Shown: positions 46,489-62,081 of the stretch, one piece after another
Position numbering within the stretch: position 1 is the stretch's first letter
Layout of the letters: every line of letters starts with the position of its first letter
Source of the DNA: Salegentibacter salarius
GTDB taxonomy: Bacteria; Bacteroidota; Bacteroidia; Flavobacteriales; Flavobacteriaceae
Assembly: GCF_900168265.1 (NCBI RefSeq)
Contig: NZ_FVZF01000001.1
Span: forward strand, 186,001 to 250,000
DNA: 64,000 nucleotides
Direction: 5' to 3'
Made by a program: the position numbers and the translations under genes
The notes under the pieces: generated by a model
Told to the model about the DNA's origin: nothing
The model's database searches: none
The model's input: the letters and a program-made list of their open reading frames with translations, nothing else

Positions 46489-47862
46489 TTAAAGTTTTAA
46501 GCTAGTAATGTCATGAAGTTGCGGAATATCTATTTCCCAATTATAGAGATCTTTTATTTTAACTCTTAAAGAATCTAAGGCTGTAGGCTCGCCGTGAATT
46601 AAGAATACTTTTTCCGGAACATTTTTAATTTCTGAAAGCCAGTCTAATAATTCGCCCTGATCTGCATGAGCAGAGAGACTTTCGATTTTTAAAATCTTTG
46701 CCTTAACGGGGCAATACTTCCCGAAGATCTTTATTTCAGCGGCTCCATTTTCCAACTGCCTTCCACGCGTACCTTCAGCCTGGTAACCTGCTAGTAAAAC
46801 AGTAGTTTCTGGTTTATCTATTAAATAGCGTAAATAGGTGAGAACCCTGCCGCCGGTGACCATACCGCTTCCGGCAATTACTACTTTAGTTCGTTTTTCA
46901 TCTATGGTTTTCCAGGTGTCACGGTATGAAGTGATAATATTAAAATAAGAAAGCATTTTTCTAAATTCAGCTGCATCTACTTTGTGCCACTTGCTAAAAC
47001 CTTCAAATAAGCCCAGCACTTTGTTACCCATTGGGCTATCTATATAAATGGCGATATTAGGAATTTTATTTGCTTTAATTAACAGATAAAGCCTGTACAT
47101 AATACCCTGTAAACGTTCTACAGCAAAACTTGGAATAATAAGGTTGCCATTATTCCTAATAGTGTCTTTTATAGCTTCAGTAAATATTTCATCTGAATTA
47201 TCTTCGGGATGAAGCCTGTCTCCATAGGTGCTTTCCAAAAATAAATAGTCGACTTTTTCTGGTTTCTTTGGCGGTTCCAGGAGTAAGTCTTTCTCTCTTC
47301 CAATATCTCCTGAAAAAACAAAGCGTTTATTGAAAATATCCAGTTCAATAAATGCCGATCCCAGAATATGGCCATTGGCCTGATAACGATATTTTATATT
47401 TTCTGAAATTTGATACCATTCATCCAGGTTTATGCTTTGAAATAAACCAATTGCTTTTTCGGCATCTTTTGTAGTATATAAAGGTAAGGCAGGTTCGTGT
47501 TTGCTGTATTCTTCTTTATTGGCTCTTTCGGCATCTTCTTCCTGAATTTTCGCACTATCGTTTAATATCACCTCGGCAATTCCCAGGCTGGGAGGCGTGC
47601 CTAAAATTGGGTTTTTATAACCTTGTTTTACCAAACGTGGCAAATATCCGGTATGGTCCAGGTGACCGTGGGTTAATAGAATAAGGTCTATGGCTTTGGG
47701 ATCAAACGGAAAATCTTTCCAGTTGAGTTCACGTAAACTTTTAATTCCCTGGAAAAGTCCGCAGTCTATTAGAATATTTAACTCTGGAGTTTCTAAAAGG
47801 AATTTAGAGCCGGTAACTGTACCAGCCGCTCCTAAGAAATGAATTTTCACCTGATTTTCCAT
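46489..47862 (-). CDS. Metallo-beta-lactamase / beta-CASP ribonuclease-like protein
   Basis: A 457-residue beta-CASP protein of the CPSF73/RNase J-like group. The metal motif LLTHGHLDHTGY is near residue 63, the second metal site is FSGDIGREKDL, the beta-CASP block VVIAGSGMVTGGRVLTYL lies near residue 330, and the C-terminal RNA-specificity motif SLSAHADQGELLDWL near 393 is followed by FLIHGEPTALDSLRVKI. Members cleave RNA. It is the last gene of a five-gene stress operon, starting 3 bases after the nuclease-like gene, so a role in RNA turnover during stress is a fair inference. Confidence 0.9.
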   Translation of the reverse strand: MENQVKIHFLGAAGTVTGSKFLLETPELNILIDCGLFQGIKSLRELNWKDFPFDPKAIDLILLTHGHLDHTGYLPRLVKQGYKNPILGTPPSLGIAEVILNDSAKIQEEDAERANKEEYSKHEPALPLYTTKDAEKAIGLFQSINLDEWYQISENIKYRYQANGHILGSAFIELDIFNKRFVFSGDIGREKDLLLEPPKKPEKVDYLFLESTYGDRLHPEDNSDEIFTEAIKDTIRNNGNLIIPSFAVERLQGIMYRLYLLIKANKIPNIAIYIDSPMGNKVLGLFEGFSKWHKVDAAEFRKMLSYFNIITSYRDTWKTIDEKRTKVVIAGSGMVTGGRVLTYLRYLIDKPETTVLLAGYQAEGTRGRQLENGAAEIKIFGKYCPVKAKILKIESLSAHADQGELLDWLSEIKNVPEKVFLIHGEPTALDSLRVKIKDLYNWEIDIPQLHDITSLKL

Positions 47863-47865
47863 AGC

Positions 47866-48702
47866 TTAATGTTTACAAAGTTCCTCCATCTCTTTTAAAA
47901 TCCTTTTTTTACGAGGATTATGAATCCCTAAGTGATCCAGGTAAAAAGTATCATTAATAAGTTCCTGGCATAAAACCACATCGCGGCTAAGCAAAAAGTT
48001 CTTTTCCCTTTCTGAAAGCAGCGTGGAAACAGTGATAGGATATAAGCCCAATTGGTCTATTCTATCTTTAATACCTTCACCTTTTGGATAATCCCAGCTT
48101 AATAGTTTAAGGTCGCTGCATTTACCATATTTTATCGCATCTGCAGTAAACCTGGTGTTGGTAACCACCCAACCCTCTTCAAATTCCAGTTTATTTTTCC
48201 CGTTATTTCTGAAATTTTTTATATCCCGAAATCTTGAATCTATATAAAGTGGAATTTTCACATCGCTGTTTCTACCGGCATTGTGAAATTTGCATTCTAT
48301 CAATATCAATTTTGTATCGCTTTTAGCTTCCACATCAATTTCATGAGATACACATTTGCCCTGGTAGATTTTCCCGGTTTCGGTTTTATAACCACTATGA
48401 CTTAAAAGCGCCGCAATAAATTTCTCAAACGGAAAACCTGTTGGTCCCAATTCATAAATAGCGGTCTTTAATTTATATTTTGAAGCACTGGTTTTATTTC
48501 CTTCCTTCAGCAAACTAAAAGCACGGTTGTAAATTTCTTTGGTAGTGATGCCATCATAGAGTTCAGTTTTTAGCTTTTCCAGGGTGCTATTTATCAACTC
48601 ATCATTTGCGCCAGAGCGCTTTAAAGACTCAGCAACCCTATCGATAGAAAACTTAGCCTTTTCGCCGGAAGCTTTTATAACCTGTAAGTTAGAAATATCC
48701 AT
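47866..48702 (-). CDS. ATP-cone plus Mrr-type PD-(D/E)xK nuclease domain protein
   Basis: A 278-residue two-domain protein. Residues 5-90 form an ATP-cone (VIKASGEKAKFSIDRVAESL, GITTKEIYNRAFSLL), the nucleotide-sensing domain of NrdR and ribonucleotide reductases. Residues 90-190 resemble an Mrr-like restriction endonuclease domain with the metal ligands in HEIDVEA (Glu121, Asp123) and LILIECKFHN (Glu136, Lys138). The C-terminal 80 residues are unassigned. No methyltransferase gene is nearby, so a classical restriction role is unlikely. Position between three Usp genes and a ribonuclease-like gene suggests an ATP- or dATP-gated nuclease in stress or dormancy. Confidence 0.85.
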   Translation of the reverse strand: MDISNLQVIKASGEKAKFSIDRVAESLKRSGANDELINSTLEKLKTELYDGITTKEIYNRAFSLLKEGNKTSASKYKLKTAIYELGPTGFPFEKFIAALLSHSGYKTETGKIYQGKCVSHEIDVEAKSDTKLILIECKFHNAGRNSDVKIPLYIDSRFRDIKNFRNNGKNKLEFEEGWVVTNTRFTADAIKYGKCSDLKLLSWDYPKGEGIKDRIDQLGLYPITVSTLLSEREKNFLLSRDVVLCQELINDTFYLDHLGIHNPRKKRILKEMEELCKH

Positions 48703-48739
48703 TTTTAGTAGTTTTATCTGGGACTAATAATTTTTGAAA

Positions 48740-49573
48740 TTATAGATCTGCGGGCATAAAAATTATAGGAATTTGCGGTTTTTTCCCTAATTCTTTAAGC
48801 AGAGATTTAGAGAAAAGGTTTCTAAAGAAACCTCTTTTTTTATGGTTTAAAACCAATATATCGCTGTTTCTACTTTGAATAAAACTATGAATCCCTTTGG
48901 TAACTTCAATGTTTGTTAGCGTATGAAAACTATGAGAAACTTTCTCAAAACGTTCATGTAATTCTTCCTTTCTATTTTCCTGTTCCTCAGAAAGGTCTTC
49001 GGTATCCTGAATATAGAGAATTCTAATACTGGCCCTAAATTTTTTGGTCATATCTATTAGAAAATTGATCTCGGTAAGAGAAAAAGATTTGTCGAATCTT
49101 GTTGCCAATACGATTTCCTTTTTTACTTCTGGCACGTGTACGCTTTGGTCTGGGATTAGTAGAACCGGCATGTGATCTACATTTTCTATAACGTTCATGC
49201 TATTGGTGCCAAAGATCCTGTCGTCGGGTTCGTTCTCGCCTTGTGTTCCCATCACGATAAGGTCAAAAATTATATCTTTTTGAATCTCGATTATTGCATC
49301 ATTCAGCCAGGATTCTATTATTAAAGATTTAAACCTATGATTCGGGTTTTTGTTTATCACAGCTACTTCTTTTAATAGCTTTTCCATTAAAATTTTATTT
49401 TCAGTTTTTGCCTGAGATAAGCTGTATCCATTAATATCTGGTGTATAGAATTCAGGTTTACAGGCATTTAAAAAATAAAAATTGCACAAGTCATTTTGAA
49501 ACAAACTAAAGGCATAAACAGTAGCTTTCCATGCGTTGACGGAAAAATCGGTGGGGATGAGTATATTTTTCAT
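48740..49573 (-). CDS. Universal stress protein, tandem UspA domains
   Basis: A 277-residue protein made of two UspA units. The first has NILIPTDFSVNAWKATVYAF and a nucleotide-binding loop IMGTQGENEPDDRIFGTNS that matches G-x2-G-x9-G-S/T; the second unit (about 150-277) starts EIVLATRFDKSFS, lacks that loop and ends IPIIFMPADL. This is the third of three paralogous Usp genes in the operon, 2 bases after the second. The three paralogues differ widely in sequence, so the duplications are old. Confidence 0.93.
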   Translation of the reverse strand: MKNILIPTDFSVNAWKATVYAFSLFQNDLCNFYFLNACKPEFYTPDINGYSLSQAKTENKILMEKLLKEVAVINKNPNHRFKSLIIESWLNDAIIEIQKDIIFDLIVMGTQGENEPDDRIFGTNSMNVIENVDHMPVLLIPDQSVHVPEVKKEIVLATRFDKSFSLTEINFLIDMTKKFRASIRILYIQDTEDLSEEQENRKEELHERFEKVSHSFHTLTNIEVTKGIHSFIQSRNSDILVLNHKKRGFFRNLFSKSLLKELGKKPQIPIIFMPADL

Positions 49574-49575
49574 AA

Positions 49576-50424
49576 TTAGCTGAATTTTCCTGATGGGATA
49601 ACCATAAATGGAACTTTAATATGAAAACCTATTTTATTTACTACGGGCCTAAACAAAAGGTTCTCAAAAAAACTACGCTTATTGTTTACCATAAAGAGTA
49701 AATCTACAGTGTTTTTCTCCTGAAATTTTTCAATAGCTTTCGTCACACTTTTATCTTCAATTGTATTGAATTGATGCGGAAAGTCTGAGATAATTTTACT
49801 AAGGTTTTTCTTATTTTCTTCCTGTTTTTCATCAAGATCTTTTCCGAAGAAAACATGCAGGATATTAATTTTTGAGTTATGGTTTTTTACTAAATTTAAA
49901 ATTGGTTCCAGTTGGGCAGCACTAAAATTTAATTCAAAATCTGTAGGAAATAGGATGTTTACTGGTGGATGATATTCATTATCTGAAGGAATCATTAATA
50001 AAGGAGCTTTTAATTTGTTTATAGCGTGTACACTATTGGTGCCGATTAAAATTTCTTCGGCGCCGGTTGCTCCCTGGGTTCCCATAATTACCAGGTCTAT
50101 TTCTTTAGACTTCAGTTGTTCTTTCATTTCATCTATTAGTAGATTGAAAGCAGAAATCTTCTCGAAACGATGTTTTGGGTTTTTAAAATCGCGATTAATT
50201 TTTCGTTCTACTTTTCGCAGTCCGCTGAGGGAATTTTTTTTATAAGCTTCAGCGAGATTGGGTTGTGTGCTGTTATATAAAATATATTCAGAATCATATA
50301 AAACCGGTGTATAAGTATTTAGAAGGTAAAATTTACATTCTTCATCTTTAAACGCTTTAATTGCATACGCAATTGCGTTATAAGCGTTTTCTGAAAAGTC
50401 TGTGGGTAAAAGTATTTTTTTCAT
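49576..50424 (-). CDS. Universal stress protein, tandem UspA domains
   Basis: A 282-residue double Usp. The first domain begins KKILLPTDFSENAYNAIAYA and carries VIMGTQGATGAEEILIGTNS, the ATP-type loop. The second begins NILFPTDFELNFSAAQLE and lacks the loop, ending VPFMVIPSG. It sits in the middle of the three Usp genes, 12 bases after the first. Such proteins bind ATP and help survival in starvation or low oxygen; this one has no further domain that would suggest a special target. Confidence 0.93.
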   Translation of the reverse strand: MKKILLPTDFSENAYNAIAYAIKAFKDEECKFYLLNTYTPVLYDSEYILYNSTQPNLAEAYKKNSLSGLRKVERKINRDFKNPKHRFEKISAFNLLIDEMKEQLKSKEIDLVIMGTQGATGAEEILIGTNSVHAINKLKAPLLMIPSDNEYHPPVNILFPTDFELNFSAAQLEPILNLVKNHNSKINILHVFFGKDLDEKQEENKKNLSKIISDFPHQFNTIEDKSVTKAIEKFQEKNTVDLLFMVNNKRSFFENLLFRPVVNKIGFHIKVPFMVIPSGKFS

Positions 50425-50436
50425 GATTTCTAAGTT

Positions 50437-51291
50437 TTAAATGCATTCCCTATTAAAATTTTGTAAAGCAAGAAGAGGGACCTTTGGATGTAGACCTACT
50501 TTATCTATAGTAGATGTTAATAGCATATCTTCTAAATAAGTATGACGGGAATTTACCATAACCAGAAGGTCTATTTCATTGGTTGCTATAAAATCTTCTA
50601 TGGCTTTTTCCTTTTTCAATTCATCTAGTTGGTGTTCTTCTGTAATTATATTGTAGAACTGTTGTTTTAAAAATTCCAGGTTATCCTGTTGCCTCGCAGA
50701 AGTTGCCTTATGCTTAGATAGATATAGAAAGTGGATTTTAGAATTAAAATCGCGGGCAATTTCCCCAACAACCTTTAATTCTCTTTTTTGATATGGAATT
50801 AAAAAATTGGTTGGAAATAAGATGTTTTTTGGTTCCTGATAACTAAAATTCGCAGGAATAGCCAGAACAGGGCATTGCACATATTTTAATACGAGTAAGG
50901 TGTTACTTCCAAAACCAAGACCTCTATCGTTGGTGGCCCCACGGGTTCCCATGATAACGAGATCGGCATTTTCTGAATTCACCAGGCTATTAACCTCATC
51001 TACCAAATCGCCAAATGCTGCGATCAATTTTATGCTATGCCTGGGATTGCAAAACTCATCATTAATTTTTGAACTTATTGCAGTTAGCTCTGTTTCTGCC
51101 TTTGTCTTGGTAACCGCTTTTAGCTCATCTATTAATTCTTTACTTAGCAAATTTTCATCGGTATAAATCTTTTCTGCATAAGTGTTTAAAAGAATTATTT
51201 GGCTCTTTTCATACTTAAAAAGCTGGCAGGCATATCGCAGAGCGTTATAAGCATTTTCTGAAAAATCGGTGGGTAAAATTATCTTTCTCAT
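50437..51291 (-). CDS. Universal stress protein, tandem UspA domains; first gene of the stress operon
   Basis: A 284-residue double Usp. The first domain begins RKIILPTDFSENAYNALRYA and has VIMGTRGATNDRGLGFGSNT; the second starts NILFPTNFLIPYQKRELK. It heads a five-gene minus-strand operon whose gaps are 12, 2, 37 and 3 bases. Upstream lie a TAACTTTA -7-like box (51311-51318) and, 22 bases further, a Crp/Fnr-type palindrome (51341-51354). This spacing recurs at three other promoters of the cluster, so it is probably controlled by the regulator encoded at 53031-54044. Confidence 0.93.
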   Translation of the reverse strand: MRKIILPTDFSENAYNALRYACQLFKYEKSQIILLNTYAEKIYTDENLLSKELIDELKAVTKTKAETELTAISSKINDEFCNPRHSIKLIAAFGDLVDEVNSLVNSENADLVIMGTRGATNDRGLGFGSNTLLVLKYVQCPVLAIPANFSYQEPKNILFPTNFLIPYQKRELKVVGEIARDFNSKIHFLYLSKHKATSARQQDNLEFLKQQFYNIITEEHQLDELKKEKAIEDFIATNEIDLLVMVNSRHTYLEDMLLTSTIDKVGLHPKVPLLALQNFNRECI

Positions 51292-51310: not shown

Positions 51311-51354
51311 TAAAGTTAAGAGAATAACTAAGTTTAAACTATGAGGAAAATCAG
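51311..51354 (-). promoter_or_regulatory. Crp/Fnr-type operator and promoter of the Usp operon
   Basis: On the minus strand: CTGATTTTCCTCAT (51354-51341; TGA-N6-TCA core), 22 bases, then TAACTTTA (51318-51311). If transcription begins 7 bases after the box, the operator centre is at about -43, the place where Crp/Fnr activators replace a -33 element. The Usp ATG is at 51291. Confidence 0.6.
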
Positions 51355-51404
51355 TTTGTATCTGAATTTTAAGCTTTTACAGTTAAAAACCGCTTTAGGT
51401 TAGT

Positions 51405-51448
51405 ATGATGGGTATCATATTTATTCTCAATAATTTACAATATATTTA
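51405..51448 (+). promoter_or_regulatory. Crp/Fnr-type operator and promoter of the WG-repeat gene
   Basis: ATGATGGGTATCAT (51405-51418), a perfect palindrome with the TGA-N6-TCA core, then 22 bases, then TATATTTA (51441-51448). The WG gene starts at 51473. Spacing is identical to that at the divergent Usp promoter. Confidence 0.6.
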
Positions 51449-51472
51449 GAGATAATTTTAAAACTTCTTACA

Positions 51473-52096
51473 ATGAAAAATTTAATATTAGGAATCTTAC
51501 TAAGTATTCCGTTTGTGTTATTCGCACAAGAGCCAAAAGAGTTTGATTTTGTATCTGACCAGCAAGATGGATTTACCGCGGTAAAGCAAGGTAGTAATTG
51601 GGGTTTTTTAAATACCAGTGGCGAGCTGTTATTTGAGCTAAGAAATGATCTTGTTGCCAATGAAAATCCCAAAAGTGATAAGATTGGCGTTGCGGGGGTA
51701 AAATATCCGCAATTAAAAGATGAACGGGCCATTATTAGAAAGCAGAAAGATGGCGTTAATTATTACGGTTTTATTAATGCCGAAGGAAAAACAGTCATTG
51801 AACCAGAATTTTTGAATGTGAGCAACTTCTCTAACGGCAAAGCTCTGGCCTTAAAACTGGAAGAAGAGCGTCTTGGCGAAAACCAGCTACTGGGAAAGAA
51901 TGTAATTTCTTATAAATATGATGTGGTTCTTATAGATAAAACCGGGGAAGTCCTAAAATATTTAGAAGGGCCTTTTCCGGTTGCAGTTTCTGAAAAGAAA
52001 TTAAGAGAAGCTCCTGCAATTAATGCAAAATGGGTAGGAGAAAATGTGGCAAGCGTAAAGGGACCTAATGGTAAATGGAAAATTCATAAGCTTTAA
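51473..52096 (+). CDS. Exported WG-repeat protein
   Basis: A 207-residue protein with a signal peptide (NLILGILLSIPFVLFAQ). Two WG-type beta repeats can be seen: GSNWGFLNTSGELLFEL near residue 40 and YYGFINAEGKTVIEPEF near residue 96; a third, weaker unit is VVLIDKTGEVLKYLEGPFP. WG repeats have no fixed biochemical function and mostly act in binding. The gene is divergent from the Usp operon, has its own copy of the Crp/Fnr-type operator, and ends at a strong terminator shared with hsp20. Confidence 0.78.
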   Translation: MKNLILGILLSIPFVLFAQEPKEFDFVSDQQDGFTAVKQGSNWGFLNTSGELLFELRNDLVANENPKSDKIGVAGVKYPQLKDERAIIRKQKDGVNYYGFINAEGKTVIEPEFLNVSNFSNGKALALKLEEERLGENQLLGKNVISYKYDVVLIDKTGEVLKYLEGPFPVAVSEKKLREAPAINAKWVGENVASVKGPNGKWKIHKL

Positions 52097-52103
52097 AAAA
52101 GAA

Positions 52104-52140
52104 GATGCTGTCCCGAAATTTTTCGGGACAGCATCGTTTT
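52104..52140. terminator. Two-way terminator between the WG gene and hsp20
   Basis: A 15-bp perfect stem (GATGCTGTCCCGAAA with its complement) and a 2-base centre, with A-rich sequence on one side and T-rich on the other. It fills the 43 bases between the convergent stops. Confidence 0.92.
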
Positions 52141-52619
52141 TAAGATACATTTACCGTTTTGGCTTTTTTAGCCTTTGCAGTCTTTCTTTTCTTAAGGCTC
52201 ATTTTTAAAATACCTTCTTTGTATTTGGCTTCTACTTCTTTATCCATATCTACTTCTTCTGGCAGACTTATATTTCTGGAAAAGCTATTATAGTTAAACT
52301 CCTTTCTAACAAAACCTTCTTTTTCTTCTTCGATCTTATTTTCCTTCTCTGCAGAGATTGATAATAAACCATCTTCTATAGAGATTTTAAAATCCTCTTT
52401 TGAAAGTCCGGGAGCTGCAAGTTCAATTTCAAACTCGTTTTCTTTTTCCTTTACATTTAATGCTGGGAATAGATCTTTATCAAAATCTCCATTAAAAAAA
52501 CGGTTTAAATTAAAGATTCCTCTTTTGGTATCCATTAAGTCCGAAAAAAATGGATCGCTGGTTAAAAGTGAACTCCCCATTGCTGGAGTTCTGCGGTTGC
52601 TAGATTTAGTGATAGACAT
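52140..52619 (-). CDS. Small heat-shock protein (Hsp20/alpha-crystallin)
   Basis: A 159-residue small heat-shock protein. The alpha-crystallin domain runs from about residue 46: LNVKEKENEFEIELAAPGLS, KISIEDGLLSISAEKEN, and the closing motif EVEAKYKEGILKMSLKK (the A-x-x-x-n-G-v-L signature). A lysine/alanine-rich tail follows. It holds unfolded proteins without ATP. Its promoter region holds the fourth Crp/Fnr-type palindrome, so it may respond to the same signal as the Usp genes rather than only to heat. Confidence 0.95.
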   Translation of the reverse strand: MSITKSSNRRTPAMGSSLLTSDPFFSDLMDTKRGIFNLNRFFNGDFDKDLFPALNVKEKENEFEIELAAPGLSKEDFKISIEDGLLSISAEKENKIEEEKEGFVRKEFNYNSFSRNISLPEEVDMDKEVEAKYKEGILKMSLKKRKTAKAKKAKTVNVS

Positions 52620-52662
52620 AATATTTATAATTTAATGGTTAATAATTTGGTTTTAAAACACA

Positions 52663-52706
52663 TTAAATTACACTTAAAAAAGAGGATTTAATATGATGAA
52701 AATCAG
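52663..52706 (-). promoter_or_regulatory. Crp/Fnr-type operator and promoter of hsp20
   Basis: On the minus strand: CTGATTTTCATCAT (52706-52693), 22 bases, then TAATTTAA (52670-52663), which is a poorer -7 match (TAnnTT only). The operator differs from that of the Usp operon in one base. The hsp20 ATG is at 52619. The rest of the 411-base gap to 53031 holds one hairpin and no gene. Confidence 0.5.
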
Positions 52707-52753
52707 TTATTTGAATAATTTTCGAAGGGGTTTGGGAAAGGCTCTAAAATACA

Positions 52754-52781
52754 GAAACAGGAAGCCATTGCCTCCTGTTTC
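52754..52781 (-). terminator. Hairpin, possible terminator of the Crp/Fnr-family gene
   Basis: GAAACAGGA pairs with TCCTGTTTC over 9 bp around a 10-base loop. On the minus strand it is followed by TGTATTTTAG, only moderately T-rich. It lies 250 bases after the regulator's stop, so it may equally serve another purpose. Confidence 0.35.
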
Positions 52782-53030
52782 CTAAGAAGATATTAAGTTT
52801 ACTCTTTAACACCTGGTTGATATCAGTGATCTTACACTAAGTAAAATTTGTATATCAGGTTAAAAAATACCTTTGATATCTTCTAAATTTGACTTCTCAC
52901 TCTAATAAGTGCAAAGAAATCAAATTATTTCTATGTTATTTTCAGTTGATTATTAAGCTAAAAGTAGTTGAAGACGTACTCAAAAAAAATGATAAATGTC
53001 AAGATATTAATTTTTAACAAAATATTATAA

Positions 53031-54044
53031 TTATGTAATATGTTGCAGTTTTTCTGAATTCAAAATATTTATATTTTTTCCTTTTATAGAAATGATGCCT
53101 TCTTTTTTTAGGCAGGAAAGACTTCGTATAAAACTTTCGGGAGAAATCCCGGCAATACTTGCAAGATCTGTTCTGGAAATTTTTAATCCCTGGAAATCTG
53201 GATTCTGTAAATCATCTGCGAATTGAAGAATGGTATTGGAGGTTTTTTTTAGAACCGAGGCATAAGCCATCTCTAAAAGTTGTGATTTGAGCCTTAAAAC
53301 AGTATCGGTTAAATGTTGGGCAAGGTCCAGGCTCAAGCCAGGGTTTTTCTGAAGTATTTCTTTAAAATCTTTATACAAGATACGATGCACCCTGGATGAC
53401 TCTATAGTGGTAGCAGTTTCAGGACAAATGGGGTTTTTATGAAAACCATATAAGCCCAGCAATTCGTTATTACGATAAATTCCGGTGATCAATTCTTTTC
53501 CAAGCTGGTCCATTCTGGAAGTTTTCACCAGGCCGTTACTTATAAGATAGATAAAGCTGGAATGCCTGTTTTCCCTGAATATAATTTTATTTTTATCCCA
53601 AGTTACCTGTTCTCCTTTTTCTTCTATATAATTTTTTAAAGTCTCTATATCCGGTATTAGAGCGCTATCAACCTTTTCGCCTTCAAAAGTTTTTTCATTT
53701 TTAAGGCATAGCAAAGCATCAATTTTAAGCAAGAGTTCAGCCTTAGAATGAGATTCTGGTAAATAATGGTGTTTACCGTGAAAAGGTTGCCAGGTCTCAA
53801 TACTGTCTTCGGAAATAATTGAAAGTAAATGGGTATTATAAAGCTCTGGGTTATTATTAAAAATTTCAGAGGAAATTTTAGTTTTATGGCTCCAAATAAT
53901 CAGTTCAGGTTTTTTTTTATTTAAAAAGCTTCTTAAGTTATGTAAAGAATTGATATAAGCATAGTTATAATCTTTTAAACCTGAAGATTTATCAAGTTTA
54001 AAAGAGCTAAAATCTTTTTCTGAAAAAAATACCACATACTTCAT
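53031..54044 (-). CDS. Crp/Fnr-family regulator with an N-terminal receiver-like domain
   Basis: A 337-residue regulator. Residues 1 to about 115 look like a receiver-type alpha/beta fold (KYVVFFSEKDFSSF, PELIIWSHKTKISSEIF) without a clear phospho-acceptor pocket. A cyclic-nucleotide-binding-type domain follows (IIFRENRHSSFIYLISNGLV near residue 149, ELLGLYGFHKNP), then a long dimer helix and a winged helix (KISRTDLASIAGISPESFIR near residue 290, LKKEGIISIKGKNI). The recognition helix SPESFIRSLS is of the Crp/Fnr kind. There is no N-terminal cysteine cluster for an iron-sulphur centre, so it is not a classical oxygen-sensing Fnr. It lies in the middle of genes carrying TGA-N6-TCA operators and is the obvious candidate to bind them. 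Confidence 0.88.
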   Translation of the reverse strand: MKYVVFFSEKDFSSFKLDKSSGLKDYNYAYINSLHNLRSFLNKKKPELIIWSHKTKISSEIFNNNPELYNTHLLSIISEDSIETWQPFHGKHHYLPESHSKAELLLKIDALLCLKNEKTFEGEKVDSALIPDIETLKNYIEEKGEQVTWDKNKIIFRENRHSSFIYLISNGLVKTSRMDQLGKELITGIYRNNELLGLYGFHKNPICPETATTIESSRVHRILYKDFKEILQKNPGLSLDLAQHLTDTVLRLKSQLLEMAYASVLKKTSNTILQFADDLQNPDFQGLKISRTDLASIAGISPESFIRSLSCLKKEGIISIKGKNINILNSEKLQHIT

Positions 54045-54254
54045 CCCGGCCGAGCTTTAAATTAATAATTAAAAAAGATCTGGGAACTGCTATACATTCC
54101 CTTGGGGGGAGTAGGGAGGAATGCTTTATACAATACTTAAATATACAAAGTAATTTCTAAAAATTCACAAAAACAAAAAATTGGTTAATCAACAGATAAT
54201 CAACATTTTAACATGCATCTTGATTTTAATTTATTTGGAATTATACTTGAAAAA

Positions 54255-54298
54255 TGATTTTTATCATTTTTAACTAATTTCTGCGGATGTATCTTTAA
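54255..54298 (+). promoter_or_regulatory. Crp/Fnr-type operator and promoter of the TerB-like gene
   Basis: ATGATTTTTATCAT (54255-54268), a palindrome with the TGA-N6-TCA core, 22 bases, then TATCTTTA (54291-54298), 19 bases before the ATG at 54318. It lies in the 273-base gap shared with the divergent regulator gene. Confidence 0.6.
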
Positions 54299-54317: not shown

Positions 54318-54728
54318 ATGAAACTTTCTAAAAAACAGTTGCTTACCGAAGAATTTTATAGCAGTATCGGGAAGCTTTTTTACGCCATTTCAGCATCAGA
54401 TAAAGTAGTAAGAAATGAAGAAATAAGAACCTTAAAGGAACTCGTTAAAGAAAAATGGGTGCCTGTAAATAATACAACCGATGAGTACGGAACTGATGAA
54501 GCCTATAAAATTGAAATAGCTTTCGATTGGTTACAAGAAAATGATCCGGAAGCAGCCTGGGCTTTTAATGAATTTCAGGAGTATAAAAAAGAACATGAAA
54601 AAGTATTCACTCCAGATATAAACCAGTTAATATGGGAGACTGCTGATGCCATTGCAGCATCTTTTTCGGGAAAGAATAAATCTGAACTTATTATGCTTTC
54701 AAAATTGAAAATATTGCTCACCAATTAA
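54318..54728 (+). CDS. TerB-like helical protein
   Basis: A 136-residue, mostly helical cytoplasmic protein. The segment SIGKLFYAISASDKVVRNEEIRTL has the arrangement of a TerB/DjlA-type domain (small residue, acidic metal-like loop, then E-x-x-x-L), so I place it there with moderate trust. The function of TerB-like domains is not well defined. It is divergent from the Crp/Fnr-family gene, carries the shared operator, and is probably cotranscribed with the zinc-ribbon gene 10 bases downstream. Confidence 0.65.
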   Translation: MKLSKKQLLTEEFYSSIGKLFYAISASDKVVRNEEIRTLKELVKEKWVPVNNTTDEYGTDEAYKIEIAFDWLQENDPEAAWAFNEFQEYKKEHEKVFTPDINQLIWETADAIAASFSGKNKSELIMLSKLKILLTN

Positions 54729-54738
54729 AAATTAAATT

Positions 54739-55002
54739 ATGGAAACGCTAATTTGCCAAAGTTGTGGATGGCCGTTTACTCCGGCTACCGCCGGGAGAAA
54801 TCGTGATAAAACGATGAATAATGATTATTGCCGGGATTGCTTTCAGGATGGGGCGTTTACGGAGAAATCTCTTAATTTACATCAATTAGAAGTGAAGCTT
54901 CTGGAAATGGCAGAAGTACATGATGATATTAGCCTGGAGGAAGCACAGGAACTTATCAAAAAGCTTCCCGAACTAAAAAGATGGCGTATGGACCATATTT
55001 AG
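54739..55002 (+). CDS. Small zinc-ribbon protein
   Basis: An 87-residue protein of the putative zinc-ribbon family (zf-ribbon type). Two CxxC knuckles are visible: ICQSCGWPFTPATAGRN at residues 5-21 and YCRDCFQDGAFTE at residues 31-43. A helical C-terminus of about 45 residues follows (LEVKLLEMAEVHDDISLEEA). Such proteins probably bind nucleic acid or protein partners; no catalytic residues are seen. It follows the TerB-like gene by 10 bases, so it should share the stress promoter. Confidence 0.78.
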   Translation: METLICQSCGWPFTPATAGRNRDKTMNNDYCRDCFQDGAFTEKSLNLHQLEVKLLEMAEVHDDISLEEAQELIKKLPELKRWRMDHI

Positions 55003-55598: not shown

Positions 55599-56585
55599 TT
55601 ATTGTTTTCTCTCTTCTCTTGCTTTTTGTCGCTCTAGTTTTCTAAAATAGCCTCGGAATAATATATTGTGTTTTAAAGCCTCCATATTCTGATTGAACCG
55701 AAAGGTAGCTTCCTCAATATTTTGCATACTTTCATCAAGATGATTTACAAATGTGGTGTCTTTAACTACATAATTTAATGCACCTTTTTCTGAATTAAGA
55801 CTATTAGAAAACTCTCCAAAATCTGCGCTTATATCTTTTATTTGTGAGGATGTAGTTTTTAGATCTTCAATAATGTTGCTAAAGCTTTTTTGGGCAGTAG
55901 AGTCGCTAAGAAGCAATCCGGCTACGCTATTTTCATAATCTACAGCATTTAAAATACCGTTTAGCTTATTTATTCCTGCCCGGGCAGAATTAGTAGTTTC
56001 ATTTAAATTTGCAGCGCTTTCCTGAATGTTTTTTGCCAGGGTTTCATTCTTTAATAAATCTCCTAAAACACCTTCTCCGGCATTAATGCTATTGGTGATC
56101 TTTAGAAGATCGGCTGTTAAAAGAGCGGCGTTTTCATTGGTTTGGTTTAAAGTGTTAAGCATGTCGGCAGTTGCAACCTGGCTAAGCGACTCCAAGGTGT
56201 CTCCTTCTTTTATTGGGCGCGAGGATACTTCACTATTGGGAAGAATATTTAAAACCATACTTCCTACCAAACCATCAGAATTTATAGTTGCTAAAGAACT
56301 GTGTTTAATTAGTTTTCCAGATTCACGGTCAATAAGCATATCTACGCAAATTGCAGTGTCGTTTAAAAATTTGATGTCTTTTACAGTTCCTACATTAACA
56401 CCAGAATAGCGCACATTGTTACCCAGTTGTAGGCCATTCACATTTTTAAAGACAGAACTTAGCATTATGGAGTCTCCAAACAGGTTTTGTTTATTACCAA
56501 TAAAAAAAACTCCCAGGGTAAAGATGATAAGTCCAGCTACTATAAGAAGACCTAATTTTAGATTTTGTCCGGAATTTGATTTCAT
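55599..56585 (-). CDS. mlaD: MlaD-like MCE-domain lipid-binding protein
   Basis: A 328-residue protein with one N-terminal membrane anchor (LKLGLLIVAGLIIFTLGVFF) and an MCE domain (NGLQLGNNVRYSGVNVGTVK near residues 49-68, GLVGSMVLNILP near 105). The C-terminal half is a long amphipathic, coiled region with Asn, Leu and Ser repeats. MCE proteins form hexameric rings that carry lipids between membranes; the ATPase and permease are encoded immediately upstream. Single-MCE form like MlaD, but with a longer tail than the enterobacterial protein. Confidence 0.93.
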   Translation of the reverse strand: MKSNSGQNLKLGLLIVAGLIIFTLGVFFIGNKQNLFGDSIMLSSVFKNVNGLQLGNNVRYSGVNVGTVKDIKFLNDTAICVDMLIDRESGKLIKHSSLATINSDGLVGSMVLNILPNSEVSSRPIKEGDTLESLSQVATADMLNTLNQTNENAALLTADLLKITNSINAGEGVLGDLLKNETLAKNIQESAANLNETTNSARAGINKLNGILNAVDYENSVAGLLLSDSTAQKSFSNIIEDLKTTSSQIKDISADFGEFSNSLNSEKGALNYVVKDTTFVNHLDESMQNIEEATFRFNQNMEALKHNILFRGYFRKLERQKAREERKQ

Positions 56586-56591
56586 AATATA

Positions 56592-57323
56592 TTATTTAAA
56601 AAAGGCTTTAATTTTAGGGTCATCAGATTTGGCGAGGTCATTAAAACTTCCCTCAGCATAATCCTTTCCGTCTAATAGCAAGATCATTCTATTTGAAATT
56701 ACCCGGGCACAGTCAACATCGTGGGTAATAATTAGCGATGAGGTGGCATACTTTTTCTGAATATTCATCATTAATAAAATGATCTCCTTAGCGGTTATTG
56801 GGTCTAATCCTGTTGTAGGTTCGTCATAAATAATAATCTTTGGTTTTAAAATAAGTGCTCTTGACAAAGCAATTCGACGTTGCATTCCTCCAGAAAGCTC
56901 AGCGGGCATAAGATCTATAGTGTCTGGCAATCCTACATTATCTAAAGCCTCTTTTACAAGTGCTTCAGTTTTTTTTTCAGAATTATGACTGTGCCTTCTT
57001 AACGGAAATTCTAAATTTTCCCGCACCGTCATAGAATCGTACAAAGCGCTGCCCTGAAACAAAAAACCTATATCGGTTCGCAATTCATCCAGTTCGTTTT
57101 GTTTTAATTTTGAGATGTCTTTTCCTAAAACTTTAATACTGCCTTTATCAACCTCCATAAGGCCTACCAGGCATTTGATCATCACCGATTTCCCTGAGCC
57201 AGATTTCCCCATTAAAACCAGGTTTTCACCTTCGAAAAGGTTCAGATTAAAATCCTTAAGAACATCAACCGTCCCAAAGCTTTTATATAAATGACTTATC
57301 TCTATTACCGCTTTATTTTCCAT
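56592..57323 (-). CDS. mlaF: MlaF-like ABC transporter ATPase
   Basis: A 243-residue ABC ATPase. Walker A is LMGKSGSGKSVMIKCLVG near residue 37, the signature is ELSGGMQRRIALSRAL near residue 141, Walker B IIIYDEPTTGLDP near residue 162, and the switch histidine is in SLIITHDVDC. The overall make-up (SHLYKSFGTVDVLKDFNL) is that of MlaF. It powers lipid movement with the permease encoded 2 bases upstream. Confidence 0.95.
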   Translation of the reverse strand: MENKAVIEISHLYKSFGTVDVLKDFNLNLFEGENLVLMGKSGSGKSVMIKCLVGLMEVDKGSIKVLGKDISKLKQNELDELRTDIGFLFQGSALYDSMTVRENLEFPLRRHSHNSEKKTEALVKEALDNVGLPDTIDLMPAELSGGMQRRIALSRALILKPKIIIYDEPTTGLDPITAKEIILLMMNIQKKYATSSLIITHDVDCARVISNRMILLLDGKDYAEGSFNDLAKSDDPKIKAFFK

Positions 57324-57325
57324 TT

Positions 57326-58105
57326 TCAGTTATAAAAAATATCGGTTATAAAAACAGCTATAAAATCTAATACAAACAGCAACATAGAGGTAAAAACCAC
57401 TGCAGAGTTAGAGGCTTTTCCTACACCGGCGGTTCCTTTTTTACTGTTATAGCCTTTAAAACATCCCACAAGCCCAATAGCAAAACCAAAGAAAAAGGTC
57501 TTTATGGTTGCAGGTAATAAATCTGTAAACTCAAGGGCTTCAAAAACCTGGTTAAAATAAAGTAAAAAAGAGACATCGCCCTTTGTATTTTCTATAATCG
57601 CCGATCCTATTAATGCCACAAAATCACCTATAATTACTAAAATGGGAAGCATACAGGTTGCCGCAAGAATCCTGGTAACCACCAGGAATTTAAACGGATT
57701 CGTACCCGAAACTTCCATAGCATCTATTTGTTCGGTAACCTTCATAGAGCCTAACTCGGCTCCTATGCTGGAACCAATTCTTCCGGCACAAATAAGTGCG
57801 ATTATTACCGGCCCAATTTCACGAACTATAGAAATACTTATCATAGAGGGCATCCACGAAACTGCGCCGAATTCCATTAAAGTTGGCCTGGATTGAAGGG
57901 TGAAAACCAAACCTAAAATAAAACCGGTTACGCTTACTAATAGCAGGGATTTATTTCCCATTTGGTAACATTGTTTCAGAAATTCTCTGAATTCAAAGGG
58001 TCGGCTAAATAGTTCCCGAAAATATCTTCCGGTAAAATTTCCCATTTCTCCTATCTCTACAAAGAAGGAATTAAAACCCGATTGATATGAGGAGAAAAAC
58101 TTCAT
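57326..58105 (-). CDS. mlaE: MlaE-like ABC permease
   Basis: A 259-residue permease of the MlaE family. About five or six membrane segments include LLLVSVTGFILGLVFTLQSR, and the conserved family block RIGSSIGAELGSMKVTEQID near residue 108 followed by MEVSGTNPFKFLVVTRI is present, as is GLVGCFKGYNSKKGTAGVG near the C-terminus. It is first in the operon MlaE-MlaF-MlaD-unknown. The order differs from the enterobacterial F-E-D-C-B, and no MlaC or MlaB is seen. Confidence 0.95.
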   Translation of the reverse strand: MKFFSSYQSGFNSFFVEIGEMGNFTGRYFRELFSRPFEFREFLKQCYQMGNKSLLLVSVTGFILGLVFTLQSRPTLMEFGAVSWMPSMISISIVREIGPVIIALICAGRIGSSIGAELGSMKVTEQIDAMEVSGTNPFKFLVVTRILAATCMLPILVIIGDFVALIGSAIIENTKGDVSFLLYFNQVFEALEFTDLLPATIKTFFFGFAIGLVGCFKGYNSKKGTAGVGKASNSAVVFTSMLLFVLDFIAVFITDIFYN

Positions 58106-58382
58106 ATAGCTATATTACCAGTAAATTTAAGCCGAGCTTGCCGTAGCAGAAATGATATTTATCAGTTTATGAGAAGAGATTAAGGAGTCGTTGTTTTAAA
58201 AGGAGTTTTTCTTCTAAAAGTTTTCTAAACTTTAGTTTTTAACACTCTTTTTTTAGAAAAATTGTTAATTTTAATGGCTAAAAATTAAATTTTAGGAATT
58301 GTATAAGCTGTTTTTTCTGGCTTTTATTGATATTTTGTTATTATAAATGGCAAATGAGTTCATAAATCTGGCATTTAACTTA

Positions 58383-58439: not shown

Positions 58440-61400
58440 ATGACAAAAGTAAATAACTACCCATCTAAATCGGAGTTGGAAAATAAGCTTAAAACTGATG
58501 AACCCCGCATTATTGCTGTAGGAGCAAGTGCCGGTGGTTTGGAAGCCTTGAAGGCTTTTTTTGAAGGCATACCCGAAACCGATAAAAATGCTTACGTAGT
58601 TATTCAACATCTCTCTCCAGACTATAAGAGTATGATGGGGGAGCTTCTTAAGAAGAATACGAATTTACCTATTCGAGAGGTTAAAGATGGAAAAAAAATA
58701 AAGCAAGGTCATATTTATTTAATTCCACCGGCCAATAACCTAACTTATGAGGATAGTAGGCTTCATCTTGTAGAAAAGCCAAAAGACCAAAGCTTAAACC
58801 TGCCAATAGATATGTTTTTCGAATCGCTTTCTAAGCAGAAAAAGGAGAAAGCTATTGCAGTAATCTTAAGCGGAACCGGGAGCGATGGTACAAGAGGGGT
58901 AAGAGCAATAAAGGAACGGGACGGAATGGTTATGGTGCAGGATCCCGAAGAAGCTAAATTTGATGGAATGCCGCAGAGTGCAATAAATACCGGTTTGGTA
59001 GATTATGTGTTGCCGGTTTCTAAAATGGCCAAAGAGCTTAAAAACTTTATAGATGCTCCTTCTGTTTTTCATTTTAAAGACGGAGATTTAAATTATAACG
59101 AAAGCGAATTAATGAAAATTCTTCGCTTTGTAGATGAAAAAACAGGTCTGGATTTCAGGGAATACAAACACGCAACGCTTGCCCGTAGAATTGCCAGAAG
59201 GGTAAATGTTTGTAAGTGTAAAAGTCTTTCCGGCTATTATGAGTTTTTAATTAAAAATGAAGAAGAAATAGAAATACTTCATCGCGAATTCCTTATTGGT
59301 GTAACTAAATTCTTTAGAGATGAAAAAGTTTGGAAAAAACTAAGGGAAGAAGTAATTCCAAAACTGGTAGAAAAGAAAAAAGATGGTGAGGTAATAAAGC
59401 TATGGGATGTTGCCTGTAGTAGCGGTGAAGAAGCTTATTCTTTTGCGATGATTATCAACGAAGAAATTGAACGCCAGAAGAAAAGTGTTGACTTAAAGAT
59501 CTTTGCTACAGATATTTCGCAAAAGCATTTAGACATTGGTAGTGAAGCATTTTATCCTGAAAGTATCGTTGCCGATATCGATTCAGAATTATTACTAAAA
59601 TACTTTATTAGTAAACCCGATGGCTATAAGGTAGTTGATAAAATGCGACGAATGGTGGTTTTCTCCAGGCATAATATCATTAAAAATCCGCCTTTCAGCA
59701 ATATGGATATGGTGGCCTGTAGAAATCTTTTAATCTATTTTCAACCCGGAATTCAGAATAAAGCATTAAACTTTTTGCAATATGCCTTAAAAGTGGGCGG
59801 TATTTTGGTTTTAGGAACCAGTGAAAATGTATCCTCTCAAAAAAATAATTTTAAAGTTATAGATCGTTCAGCAAAGATTTTCCGGAATGAAAATACAGAT
59901 AAGCGGTTAATTTCAAACCTCTCGCAATCAACTACATCAAATAATTTACCCTCTAGCAGACGCGAAATTAAACGCCCATCCTATCGAAAGTCTTCAAACC
60001 CAATTAAAAATAAACTTGCAGAAGAACTTAATGAAACTATACTGGAGACCTTTGGAGGAGCCAGTGTGTTTGTAGATAAAGATTTTAATATTTTGCAAGC
60101 GGTTGGTGAATTTCGAAAGTATGCCAATTTACCGGTGAGTGGATTTTCTATAAACCTGCTTGATATGCTGGAAGCAGATCTAAGATATATTATTCAAAGC
60201 ACCTTGAAAAAGGCTAAAAAGAATAATGCAAAACTTAGGTATAAAGATGCTTCTTTTGAACATAACGATGAGCAGGGCTCGGTAGATATTATTGTAAAGC
60301 CTTATAACCAGAAGATAGAGGATAACAGCATAAGTTTTGTGATTACCTTTATAGAAAAGGAGGTTAATTTAGAGGATGTTGATACGCTTGATAAATTAAC
60401 ATTAACCAATCGTACCAAAGAATATGTTGCAGATCTGGAAGAGGAACTCAAAGAGACCAAAGAAGAGCTGCAAACTTCTATGGAAGAAATTGAAACCAGT
60501 AATGAGGAGTTGCAGGCTGCAAACGAAGAGTTACTGGCTTCTAATGAAGAATTACAAAGTACCAACGAAGAGCTACAAAGTGTAAATGAAGAAATAAATA
60601 CGGTAAATGCCGAGAATCTTCAGAAGGTAGAAGACCTGGCAGCGCTAAATGCCGATATGAACAATTTGCTGGAAAGCACTGAAATTGGTGTTATATTTCT
60701 TGATACAGATTTAAAAATCAGAAAATTTACCCCGGCAATTCAAAGACATTTTAATTTAATCGATTCAGATGAAGGTCGTCCTATAGAGCATTTTACTTCC
60801 AGTATGGGGAAAAATAACCTCATTACACGTTGTAAACGGGTACTAAGAACAGGTAAGATCCTTGAAAAGCAAGTGATGACCAGGGATAACTCTTATTATT
60901 TAAGAAGAATTTCGCCATATATAAATTCTAATGATGAGATAAGTGGAGTAGTGGTTACTTTTATAGATGTTGGTTTATTGCAACGATCTAAAGAAAAATT
61001 AATTGCCAGTGAAAAACGCTTCAAATCTTTCTACGAAGAGGATCCTGTAATTCATATTAGTGTAGACCCACAAACACAGCTTATTGTACAATGCAATGAA
61101 ATGGCAGTGACAAAGTTGGGTTATGAAACTAAAGAAGACCTAATAGATAAACCGGTCTATGATCTTTATAATGTGGAATCTCAGCTTAGAGCCTTAAAAT
61201 CTAATAAAGAATTTAAGAATACAGGTGCTATAGTGAATATGGAGCAGGATATGCTTACTGCTGCAGGAGATATACTTCCCGTAATTTTAAATGCTACGGC
61301 AGAGAAAGATTTAGATGGTAGAGTAATGACCATAAGGTACACTTGCGTAGATATTTCAGCTTTAAAAAATGCCGAAAATCAATTAAAACAGCAACACGAC

Positions 61401-62081
61401 GATCTGGAACGCGCCAATAAGGACCTGGAACAATTTGTGTCCATTTGTTCACATGATCTCCAGGAGCCGCTTTCCACCATTAAGTTTGGTAGTGATGTAT
61501 TAGGGAAAATGTATGCTACGAAACTAGATGAAAAGGGCAAAAATTATATTCAATATATAAAAGATGCATCAACCCGTCTTTCAGAGCAAATTAAAGCTTT
61601 GCTGGAACACTCCAGAATTGGGCGTCACGGTGACAAAAGCCTGGTAAACATTAAAGAAATAGTAGAAGTTGTGAAATACGATCTTGGTAAAAGAATCAAG
61701 GACACCAATGCAAAGGTAAATGCCGGTTCATTGCCAAAGATCATGGGGCACGAGGTAGAATTGCGCCTGCTTTTCCAAAATCTCATTAGTAACGCTATTA
61801 AATATACTCCAAGCGATAGAAATCCAGACGTTCGTATAGCGTCGTATAGAGAAGGCGCTCACTGGGTTTTTTCTGTAACCGATAATGGCTATGGAATTTC
61901 AGAAGAAGATAAAAAGAACATTTTTACCATCTTTAACCGTGTAAAAGAAACCGATGCAAACGAAGGAACCGGGGTTGGTTTGGCACACGTAGAAAAGATC
62001 GTTCAACTGCACGAAGGCACCATTTGGGTAGAAAGCCAGGTAGATGTGGGAAGTACTTTTTATTTTAAATTAAAAGCTTAA
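58440..62081 (+). CDS. CheB-CheR-PAS-PAS-histidine kinase fusion protein
   Basis: A 1213-residue fusion. Residues 20-200 are a CheB-type methylesterase domain ([43 protein letters not shown]) without a receiver. Residues 215-490 form a CheR-type methyltransferase ([19 protein letters not shown] for [31 protein letters not shown]). A Glu-rich coiled coil (about 665-715; repeated SNEELQ) is followed by two PAS units and a histidine kinase ([18 protein letters not shown] near residue 1003, [39 protein letters not shown]). No chemoreceptor gene is near, so it probably signals outside classical chemotaxis. The next gene, a bacteriophytochrome, is only 6 bases downstream. Confidence 0.94.

Follow-up and report, generated by a model that had tools for sequence, protein, structure and literature searches.

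Genes of the stress and low-oxygen kind in the marine bacterium Salegentibacter salarius appear to be switched on through one operator placed at a fixed distance from their transcription starts. Within the stretch of 64,000 nucleotides analysed here (the window), at least six promoters share a Crp/Fnr-type palindrome, with the consensus [AC]TGA[TC]-N4-[AG]TCAT, upstream of a TAnnTT box (Table 1). The palindrome is centred near −41.5, at a constant distance from the core box, which is the arrangement of class II Crp/Fnr-type promoters. A preliminary description had named four of these sites and proposed that they share one operator; the gap between palindrome and box is indeed exactly 22 bp in all four. 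Three of the four palindromes lie where that description placed them, and the one before its ‘TerB-like’ gene is at 54254–54267 rather than 54255–54268. The class II activator position holds, but the operator centre is −41.5 and not −43 as claimed, because the flavobacterial promoter box spans −12 to −5 (PMC9723704). The operators of the mlaE operon and of a non-coding RNA are additions to the original four.

Table 1. Operators, target genes, regulator and small RNA in the window, in order of position
Feature	Positions	Strand	Operator, gap, box sequence	Box	Predicted start	Remarks
Three Usp genes, ATP-cone/Mrr protein, β-CASP metallo-hydrolase	46489–51291	−				Target run
Usp operator	51341–51354	−	CTGATTTTCCTCAT, 22 bp, TAACTTTA	51311–51318	51306	
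WG-repeat gene operator	51405–51418	+	ATGATGGGTATCAT, 22 bp, TATATTTA	51441–51448	51453	
WG-repeat protein	51473–52096	+				Target
Hsp20	52140–52619	−				Target
hsp20 operator	52693–52706	−	CTGATTTTCATCAT, 22 bp, TAATTTAA	52663–52670	52658	
Structured small RNA gene	52745–52954	−				About 205 nt, ends approximate; fold, covariation, conservation
Terminator hairpin of small RNA	52753–52782	−	GGAAACAGGAGGC...			13 pairs
Small RNA operator	52989–53002	−		52959–52966	52954	Sixth operator
Crp-type regulator	53031–54044	−				337 aa; degenerate receiver domain
136-aa gene operator	54254–54267	+	ATGATTTTTATCAT, 22 bp, TATCTTTA	54290–54297	54302	
136-aa protein of no assigned family, zinc-ribbon protein	54318–55002	+				Targets
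MlaE, ABC ATPase, third gene of run	55599–58105	−				Targets; Pfam run on MlaE only
mlaE operon operator	58152–58165	−		58122–58129	58117	Fifth operator

Equally spaced palindromes could in principle arise by chance in AT-rich DNA, and the G+C content of 0.36 is low; the relaxed pattern TGAN6TCA-N23-TANNTTT, with 24 matches in the whole genome, still has 9 in the reversed control. The strict pattern TGATN4ATCA-N23-TANNTT, however, has 12 matches genome-wide and none when read backwards. Across 120 Flavobacteriaceae genomes a gap of 22 gives 311 matches (7 reversed) and a gap of 23 gives 45 (13 reversed), a spacing control that already contradicts chance, and sites are conserved before orthologous genes. 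We therefore consider coincidence hardly credible for the four sites, in agreement with the earlier judgement that their repetition and spacing are unlikely to be accidental. Of the 12 strict matches, eight are followed by an ORF start within about 82 nt, three are inside ORFs, and the last is outside any ORF, 316 nt before the next one. In a set of 40 loci (725 kb), a gap of 22 separates the palindrome from TAnnTTTG in 68 cases, and no other gap from 5 to 60 occurs more than three times. Seven of these loci had been selected or repositioned when matches in them were already known; the 33 others give 44 cases at gap 22 and at most three elsewhere.

The sites had been described as a local regulon. 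A purely local regulon is ruled out by the genome-wide matches; the pattern recurs through the genome and the family, and one of its promoters in the window precedes a non-coding RNA. A scan of orthologues in relatives finds sites with the same gap in S. holothuriorum and S. maritimus. The Usp, WG-repeat, 136-aa and mlaE operators each keep the gap at loci L042 and L043, and the hsp20 operator keeps it at L043; L042 has no hsp20 at that locus. The targets appear to be of the low-oxygen and stress kind, among them Usp proteins, Hsp20, a ribosome hibernation factor, cbb3 oxidase parts and Mla transport. Gene spacing suggests that the run headed by the Usp operator forms a single operon. The ‘TerB-like’ label for the 136-aa gene has no Pfam support, and the labels NosZ and globin, considered for two targets, were dropped for the same reason.

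The sixth operator has no protein gene behind it. It is followed instead by a gene for a structured RNA, directly after the regulator gene, that is recognized by its conservation, covariation, promoter and terminator and is presumably transcribed. The predicted fold is unusually stable (z = −6.67), and the helices covary among aligned copies. Eighteen copies occur in 14 of 60 genomes, all 18 with the palindrome and 22-bp gap upstream; a DNA search detected none in three of 15 genomes of the genus, one of which is only 61% complete. Diverged relatives are present in other genera, some as tandem arrays, and the exact 9-bp ends of the terminator stem occur 11 times in eight of the 120 genomes. 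Covariance-model matches are found in 12 of the 120 genomes, each of which encodes a receiver-Crp protein (see below), with one of the 12 (G037) looking like a false match. The RNA is missing from every gene catalogue checked. Rfam returned no match up to E = 1 within the stretch and nothing above gathering scores in six relatives, so a known RNA family was rejected as its identity. A small coding ORF was also rejected: the longest here is 8 aa and none is common to the 17 copies compared, some single copies carrying ORFs of up to 51 aa. The gene thus combines the three features expected of an FnrS-like sRNA: it is non-coding, has its own activator-type promoter and ends in a terminator.

The position of this stretch, between the regulator gene and hsp20 on the same strand, would also suit an hsp20 leader or a 3′ untranslated region of the regulator transcript, and many copies have hsp20 downstream. 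The stretch nevertheless has a promoter-type site and terminator of its own, and hsp20 carries a separate operator. The stretch is moreover kept at loci with no downstream hsp20, such as L076, L080, L082 and L083, and two copies (L088 and L089) are distant from any regulator. A leader or untranslated end is accordingly quite improbable, and we treat the RNA as free-standing. A broader and more tentative suggestion is that it founds a Flavobacteriaceae RNA family whose arrays hold one to three units, every unit closing with a near-constant GAAACAGGA/UCCUGUUUC hairpin. Such RNAs might be made when a FixL-type receiver-Crp system is active and could form the post-transcriptional arm of a low-oxygen and dormancy response, the paired regulator having been freed from its kinase in one genus.

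A Crp-family gene does lie among the targets, as had been noted, and its sensor is unlike that of classical Fnr, as had also been proposed. The N-terminal cysteine cluster of FNR proper holds a 4Fe–4S centre; no such cluster is seen in the sequence of the window regulator, which has three scattered cysteines, no CxxC cluster and an N-terminal degenerate receiver. As judged from its sequence, this protein is related to a widespread receiver-Crp family, found in 51 of the 120 genomes (E < 1e-40). Although the receiver domain is homologous, it lacks the phosphorylated Asp, a site lost within the genus; a second receiver-Crp copy, on contig 9, retains it. The structure model is modest (pLDDT 75, pTM 0.44), and the 50 top-ranking structures that Foldseek gives for it all belong to Crp-type proteins; the receiver origin therefore rests on evidence other than the model. 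No box stands at gap 22 on the regulator's side of the divergent palindrome at 54254, and class II autoregulation through that site was rejected.

A FixL-like kinase adjoins the receiver-Crp regulator in 31 of 42 loci, and none is found beside the window-type regulators at L042 and L043. The PAS domain of the contig 9 kinase matches FixL (aligned to 1d06) with E = 3.5e-18. Among 15 of the homologues, inspected by eye, the His aligned with the haem ligand is present in all 15 and the Arg of the FG loop in 14. The contig 9 kinase carries this FixL-type haem-PAS signature and is predicted to bind haem.

Which protein reads the operator is suggested by its distribution. Genomes with a receiver-Crp protein carry more strict sites than those without (mean 3.4 versus 2.0, p = 4e-5, uncorrected for kinship), operator sites crowd around receiver-Crp genes, and the RNA follows a window-type regulator gene in 13 copies. 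These observations run against a reading in which another Crp/Fnr protein, such as the 198-aa protein of contig 12, is the main user of the operator and the window regulator controls little or something else. That reading draws on the five HTH_Crp_2 proteins above the family cut-off in the S. salarius genome, which are possible competitors; by eye, three of the five share an E-x-x-x-R recognition helix, the contig 12 protein among them. Sites are also not exclusive to receiver-Crp genomes, since 45 of the 69 genomes without such a protein have at least one strict site. On balance we think this alternative unlikely and favour the receiver-Crp family as the probable binder.

Taken as a whole, we consider it probable that class II Crp/Fnr-type activation, most likely by the receiver-Crp family, governs a regulon that includes the RNA of about 205 nt. 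Given the promoter architecture observed, an activator dimer would bind the palindrome centred at −41.5 of σA promoters that have no strong −33 element, and would activate them in class II fashion; the window regulator may be one such binder. The contig 9 copy, beside its haem-PAS kinase, would respond through phosphorylation to low oxygen, which we infer to be the signal. The window copy would act without a kinase, perhaps set by its own amount or by another cue. By analogy with FnrS of Escherichia coli, the RNA would most likely be a trans-acting regulator that carries the response on to the post-transcriptional level.

The rule of palindrome, 22 bp and TAnnTT makes a low-oxygen and stress regulon readable from sequence in a large environmental family, and it reveals a structured RNA overlooked by ORF- and Rfam-based annotation. 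The loss of the phosphorylation site, observed here in a receiver-Crp protein, makes kinase-free control directly testable. We recognized no description of the promoter rule or the RNA in the open-licence literature searched. Flavobacterial CRP/FNR homologues are treated as MalR-like in PMC8510549, and the main text of PMC9723704 has no mention of FNR or CRP. The latter paper describes Rfp18 of Flavobacterium psychrophilum as an independent RNA with strong predicted structure and a named third stem-loop; compared by description only, it resembles the small RNA in being an independent structured RNA of flavobacteria.

The promoters resemble E. coli FNR and CRP class II promoters in their TGAT/ATCA inverted-repeat arms at −41.5 and in the E-x-x-x-R recognition helix of the activator. 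They differ in having A or C, not T, as the first base of the arm and the Bacteroidetes TAnnTT as the box, and the window regulator lacks the iron–sulphur cysteine cluster of E. coli FNR. Like the small RNA, FnrS of E. coli is non-coding, has a terminator and lies downstream of an Fnr-type activator site. Unlike FnrS, to which Rfam indicates no kinship, the RNA here is about 205 nt long with a long interrupted hairpin, and related units form tandem arrays in other genera. A parallel in signalling is with the rhizobial FixL–FixJ–FixK cascade, which likewise combines a FixL-like PAS kinase, a Crp-type activator and cbb3 oxidase parts as targets. Here, by contrast, a single protein carries both the receiver and the Crp domain, and in the window copy the receiver is dead and no kinase adjoins the gene.

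The four Crp/Fnr-type palindromes of the preliminary description are all present in the window, and the gap to a TAnnTT box is exactly 22 bp in every case; the position of the fourth is corrected by one base from 54255–54268. A study of mapped transcription starts in another Flavobacteriaceae species puts the sigma-A box TAnnTTTG at −12 to −5 (PMC9723704). With the box at −12 to −5 and a 22-bp gap, the 14-bp palindrome therefore occupies −48 to −35 and is centered at −41.5 instead of near −43 as first estimated. A center at −41.5 is the class II activator position, as had been proposed. The 22-bp gap is kept before mlaE and the 136-aa, WG and Usp genes in S. holothuriorum and S. maritimus; of these two named species, S. 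maritimus alone has hsp20 and its site.

Features of the window (positions of the 64,000-nt stretch)
Feature	Coordinates	Strand	Remark
ATP-cone domain fused to Mrr-type endonuclease domain	47866–48702		within Usp gene run
Small RNA	52745–52954	minus	gene of ~205 nt, ends approximate
Terminator hairpin	52753–52782		13 pairs; end of small RNA
Operator of small RNA	52989–53002	minus	relaxed-pattern site, no gene behind
Crp/Fnr-family regulator gene	53031–54044	minus	337 aa
Fourth palindrome	54254–54267		
1213-aa protein	58440–62081		divergent from mlaE operon

This architecture extends well beyond a local regulon, as it was first termed. The strict pattern (TGATN4ATCA-N23-TANNTT) matches 12 times in the 3.33-Mb genome, where the window occupies 186001–250000 of contig 5, and 0 times when reversed, and 311 versus 7 times in 120 family genomes, 92 of which have matches; these counts contradict a chance rate for the spacing. 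Eight of the 12 genome matches are at most about 82 nt away from the start of an ORF, one is outside any ORF with the next 316 nt further on, and three are inside ORFs. In the same genome the relaxed pattern (TGAN6TCA-N23-TANNTTT) gives 24 matches versus 9 reversed, and the palindrome alone 78 versus 29 in the control, per strand. A gap of 23 yields 45 versus 13 matches, in 35 family genomes and with none in S. salarius.

We also counted boxes behind 622 palindrome strands in 40 fetched loci with a total length of 725 kb; 39 of them surround genes of the regulator family, and one, from genome G059, surrounds a hairpin. TAnnTTTG occurs 68 times at gap 22 and never more than three times at another gap in the range 5 to 60; the figures for TAnnTT are 214 and 2 to 19. 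Seven loci had been picked or shifted with matches already known, and the count repeated on the other 33 gives 44 versus at most 3 for TAnnTTTG and 167 versus 2 to 15 for TAnnTT. The composition of 204 sites, with TGA, TCA and the box fixed beforehand by selection, is [AC]TGA[TC]-N4-[AG]TCAT. The promoter-proximal outer base is the stricter (T in 98%), and the gap is only mildly T-rich, with no strong −33 element in its composition. The equal spacing is real, and a larger finding than first reported.

Predicted targets with Pfam support in this genome include Usp proteins, Hsp20, the WG-repeat protein, MlaE, a short-chain dehydrogenase, a VIT-family protein, cytochrome c, a fasciclin protein, NhaA, a heavy-metal-associated protein, an S30AE-family hibernation factor and a radical-SAM protein, presumably of the HemN type. 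Others are FixS, a cbb3 maturation protein, with oxidase subunit I after it, and small proteins followed by pyruvate phosphate dikinase or by D-2-hydroxyacid dehydrogenase. Part of this set depends on the relaxed pattern, where chance should account for about 9 of the 24 matches. Behind the 213 sites tabulated from the 40 loci, Usp, hibernation-factor, Hsp20, 136-aa and WG proteins (named by likeness) recur; the label ‘TerB-like’ given earlier to the 136-aa gene found no support in the Pfam search. For a stress operon, the ATP-cone/Mrr fusion is an unusual component. The 1213-aa protein, which by likeness we take to be a CheB/CheR fusion, has an orthologue in the same place in S. holothuriorum and S. 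maritimus.

The regulator gene reported among the palindromes encodes a cNMP-binding fold and a Crp helix-turn-helix, and has two relatives in named genomes, both Salegentibacter (Flavobacteriaceae). The N-terminal part of the protein can be aligned to receiver domains from the ~350-aa receiver–Crp proteins that occur across the family (profile comparison: 88.5% probability, E 2.7e-6), but it has lost the residues for phosphorylation. Ten genus copies with the same loss form one clade (100/100, midpoint root). Two other genomes of the genus, G031 and G120, have intact receivers, as does G007, and in all three the RNA lies behind the regulator.

A second receiver–Crp, intact, is encoded on contig 9 of S. 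salarius, separated by 40 bp from a preceding kinase gene; the PAS domain of the kinase has FixL as its top match (1d06, E 3.5e-18). A Usp gene comes next in this locus (L147:4567–6870), under a 22-bp promoter of its own. In 31 of 42 loci the regulator has a FixL-like kinase next to it. The other 11, two of which end close to the regulator, include the window-type loci of S. holothuriorum (L042) and S. maritimus (L043), G031 and G007. Each of the five Crp proteins over the cut-off in S. salarius, three of them with an E-x-x-x-R helix, is a candidate binder of the sites. Of 69 genomes without receiver–Crp, 45 have sites; the mean per genome is 2.0 without receiver–Crp versus 3.4 with it.

The small RNA lies behind such a promoter. 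Its operator is kept in S. holothuriorum and S. maritimus, even without hsp20, and the stretch behind it is more strongly conserved than the flanks. The fold has a z of −6.67 (0/200 shuffles fold as well). In a DNA search of 60 genomes, 18 copies turned up in 14, S. salarius among them; these are 12 of the 15 genomes of the genus, G007, and G018 (a 31-nt match). All 18 have one palindrome in the 260 bases upstream with a TAnnTT box at gap 22; palindromes were chosen regardless of box, and some copies have extra boxes at other gaps. The consensus structure of 17 copies (G018 omitted) has 57 pairs, 97.6% formed, and 13 pairs changed on both sides versus 5.7 in shuffles (0/500 as high). With slid partners the pairs formed drop to 44–53%, a comparison biased toward the structure, which was drawn from these very sequences. 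No ORF common to the copies was found, Rfam gave no match in the RNA stretch up to E 1, and six related loci gave nothing over gathering scores. Second copies in G127 and G125 (L088, L089) precede an hsp20 gene without any regulator, as if RNA and hsp20 had been duplicated together.

A covariance model excluding the promoter found 15 matches in 12 of 120 family genomes. All 12 have receiver–Crp, which occurs in 51 of the 120 (E below 1e-40). A 22-bp promoter stands at the head of the unit or array for 13 of the matches; two of the 13 are assigned by position, namely the second unit of G108 and a G061 match that falls on the strand opposite a hairpin. The second G061 locus has a weak site only. 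The G037 match is probably false, as it falls within a coding sequence. Two or three units in a row share one promoter in G034, G061, G110, G049, G028 and G108, and two units have separate promoters in G031 and G120. In five loci of other genera (L138, L123, L119, L120, L125), the two- and three-unit runs behind one 22-bp promoter have units of ~130–215 nt, each ending in a GAAAC/GUUUC-type hairpin. By eye, about 14 of 19 singly folded units have a long interrupted hairpin that closes immediately ahead of the terminator hairpin. Exact matches to the hairpin GAAACAGGA-N6..14-TCCTGTTTC number 11 and come from 8 of the 120 genomes, seven with receiver–Crp. The exception, G059, has no receiver–Crp match at E 1e-20, which makes the hairpin separable from the regulator; its locus (L146) has the GAAACAGGA hairpin and 22-bp promoters. 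An RNA-type promoter is present in about a dozen of the 40 loci, with none within the fetched stretch of the others. Unit bodies diverge fast, so common descent of all RNA units is no more than likely.

We suggest that low oxygen would act through the FixL-like kinase on the intact receiver–Crp, and that the Crp dimer would switch on the class II promoters. Independent of phosphorylation, the copy in the window may keep part of the regulon under other control, and the small RNA may act on mRNAs or on an RNA-binding protein. We compare this scheme with FNR, FixK and FnrS and, through the structure match, with FixL. The logic of operator and promoter is of a known kind, here in a flavobacterial variant; what would surprise a specialist is the small RNA and the regulator with its degenerate receiver.
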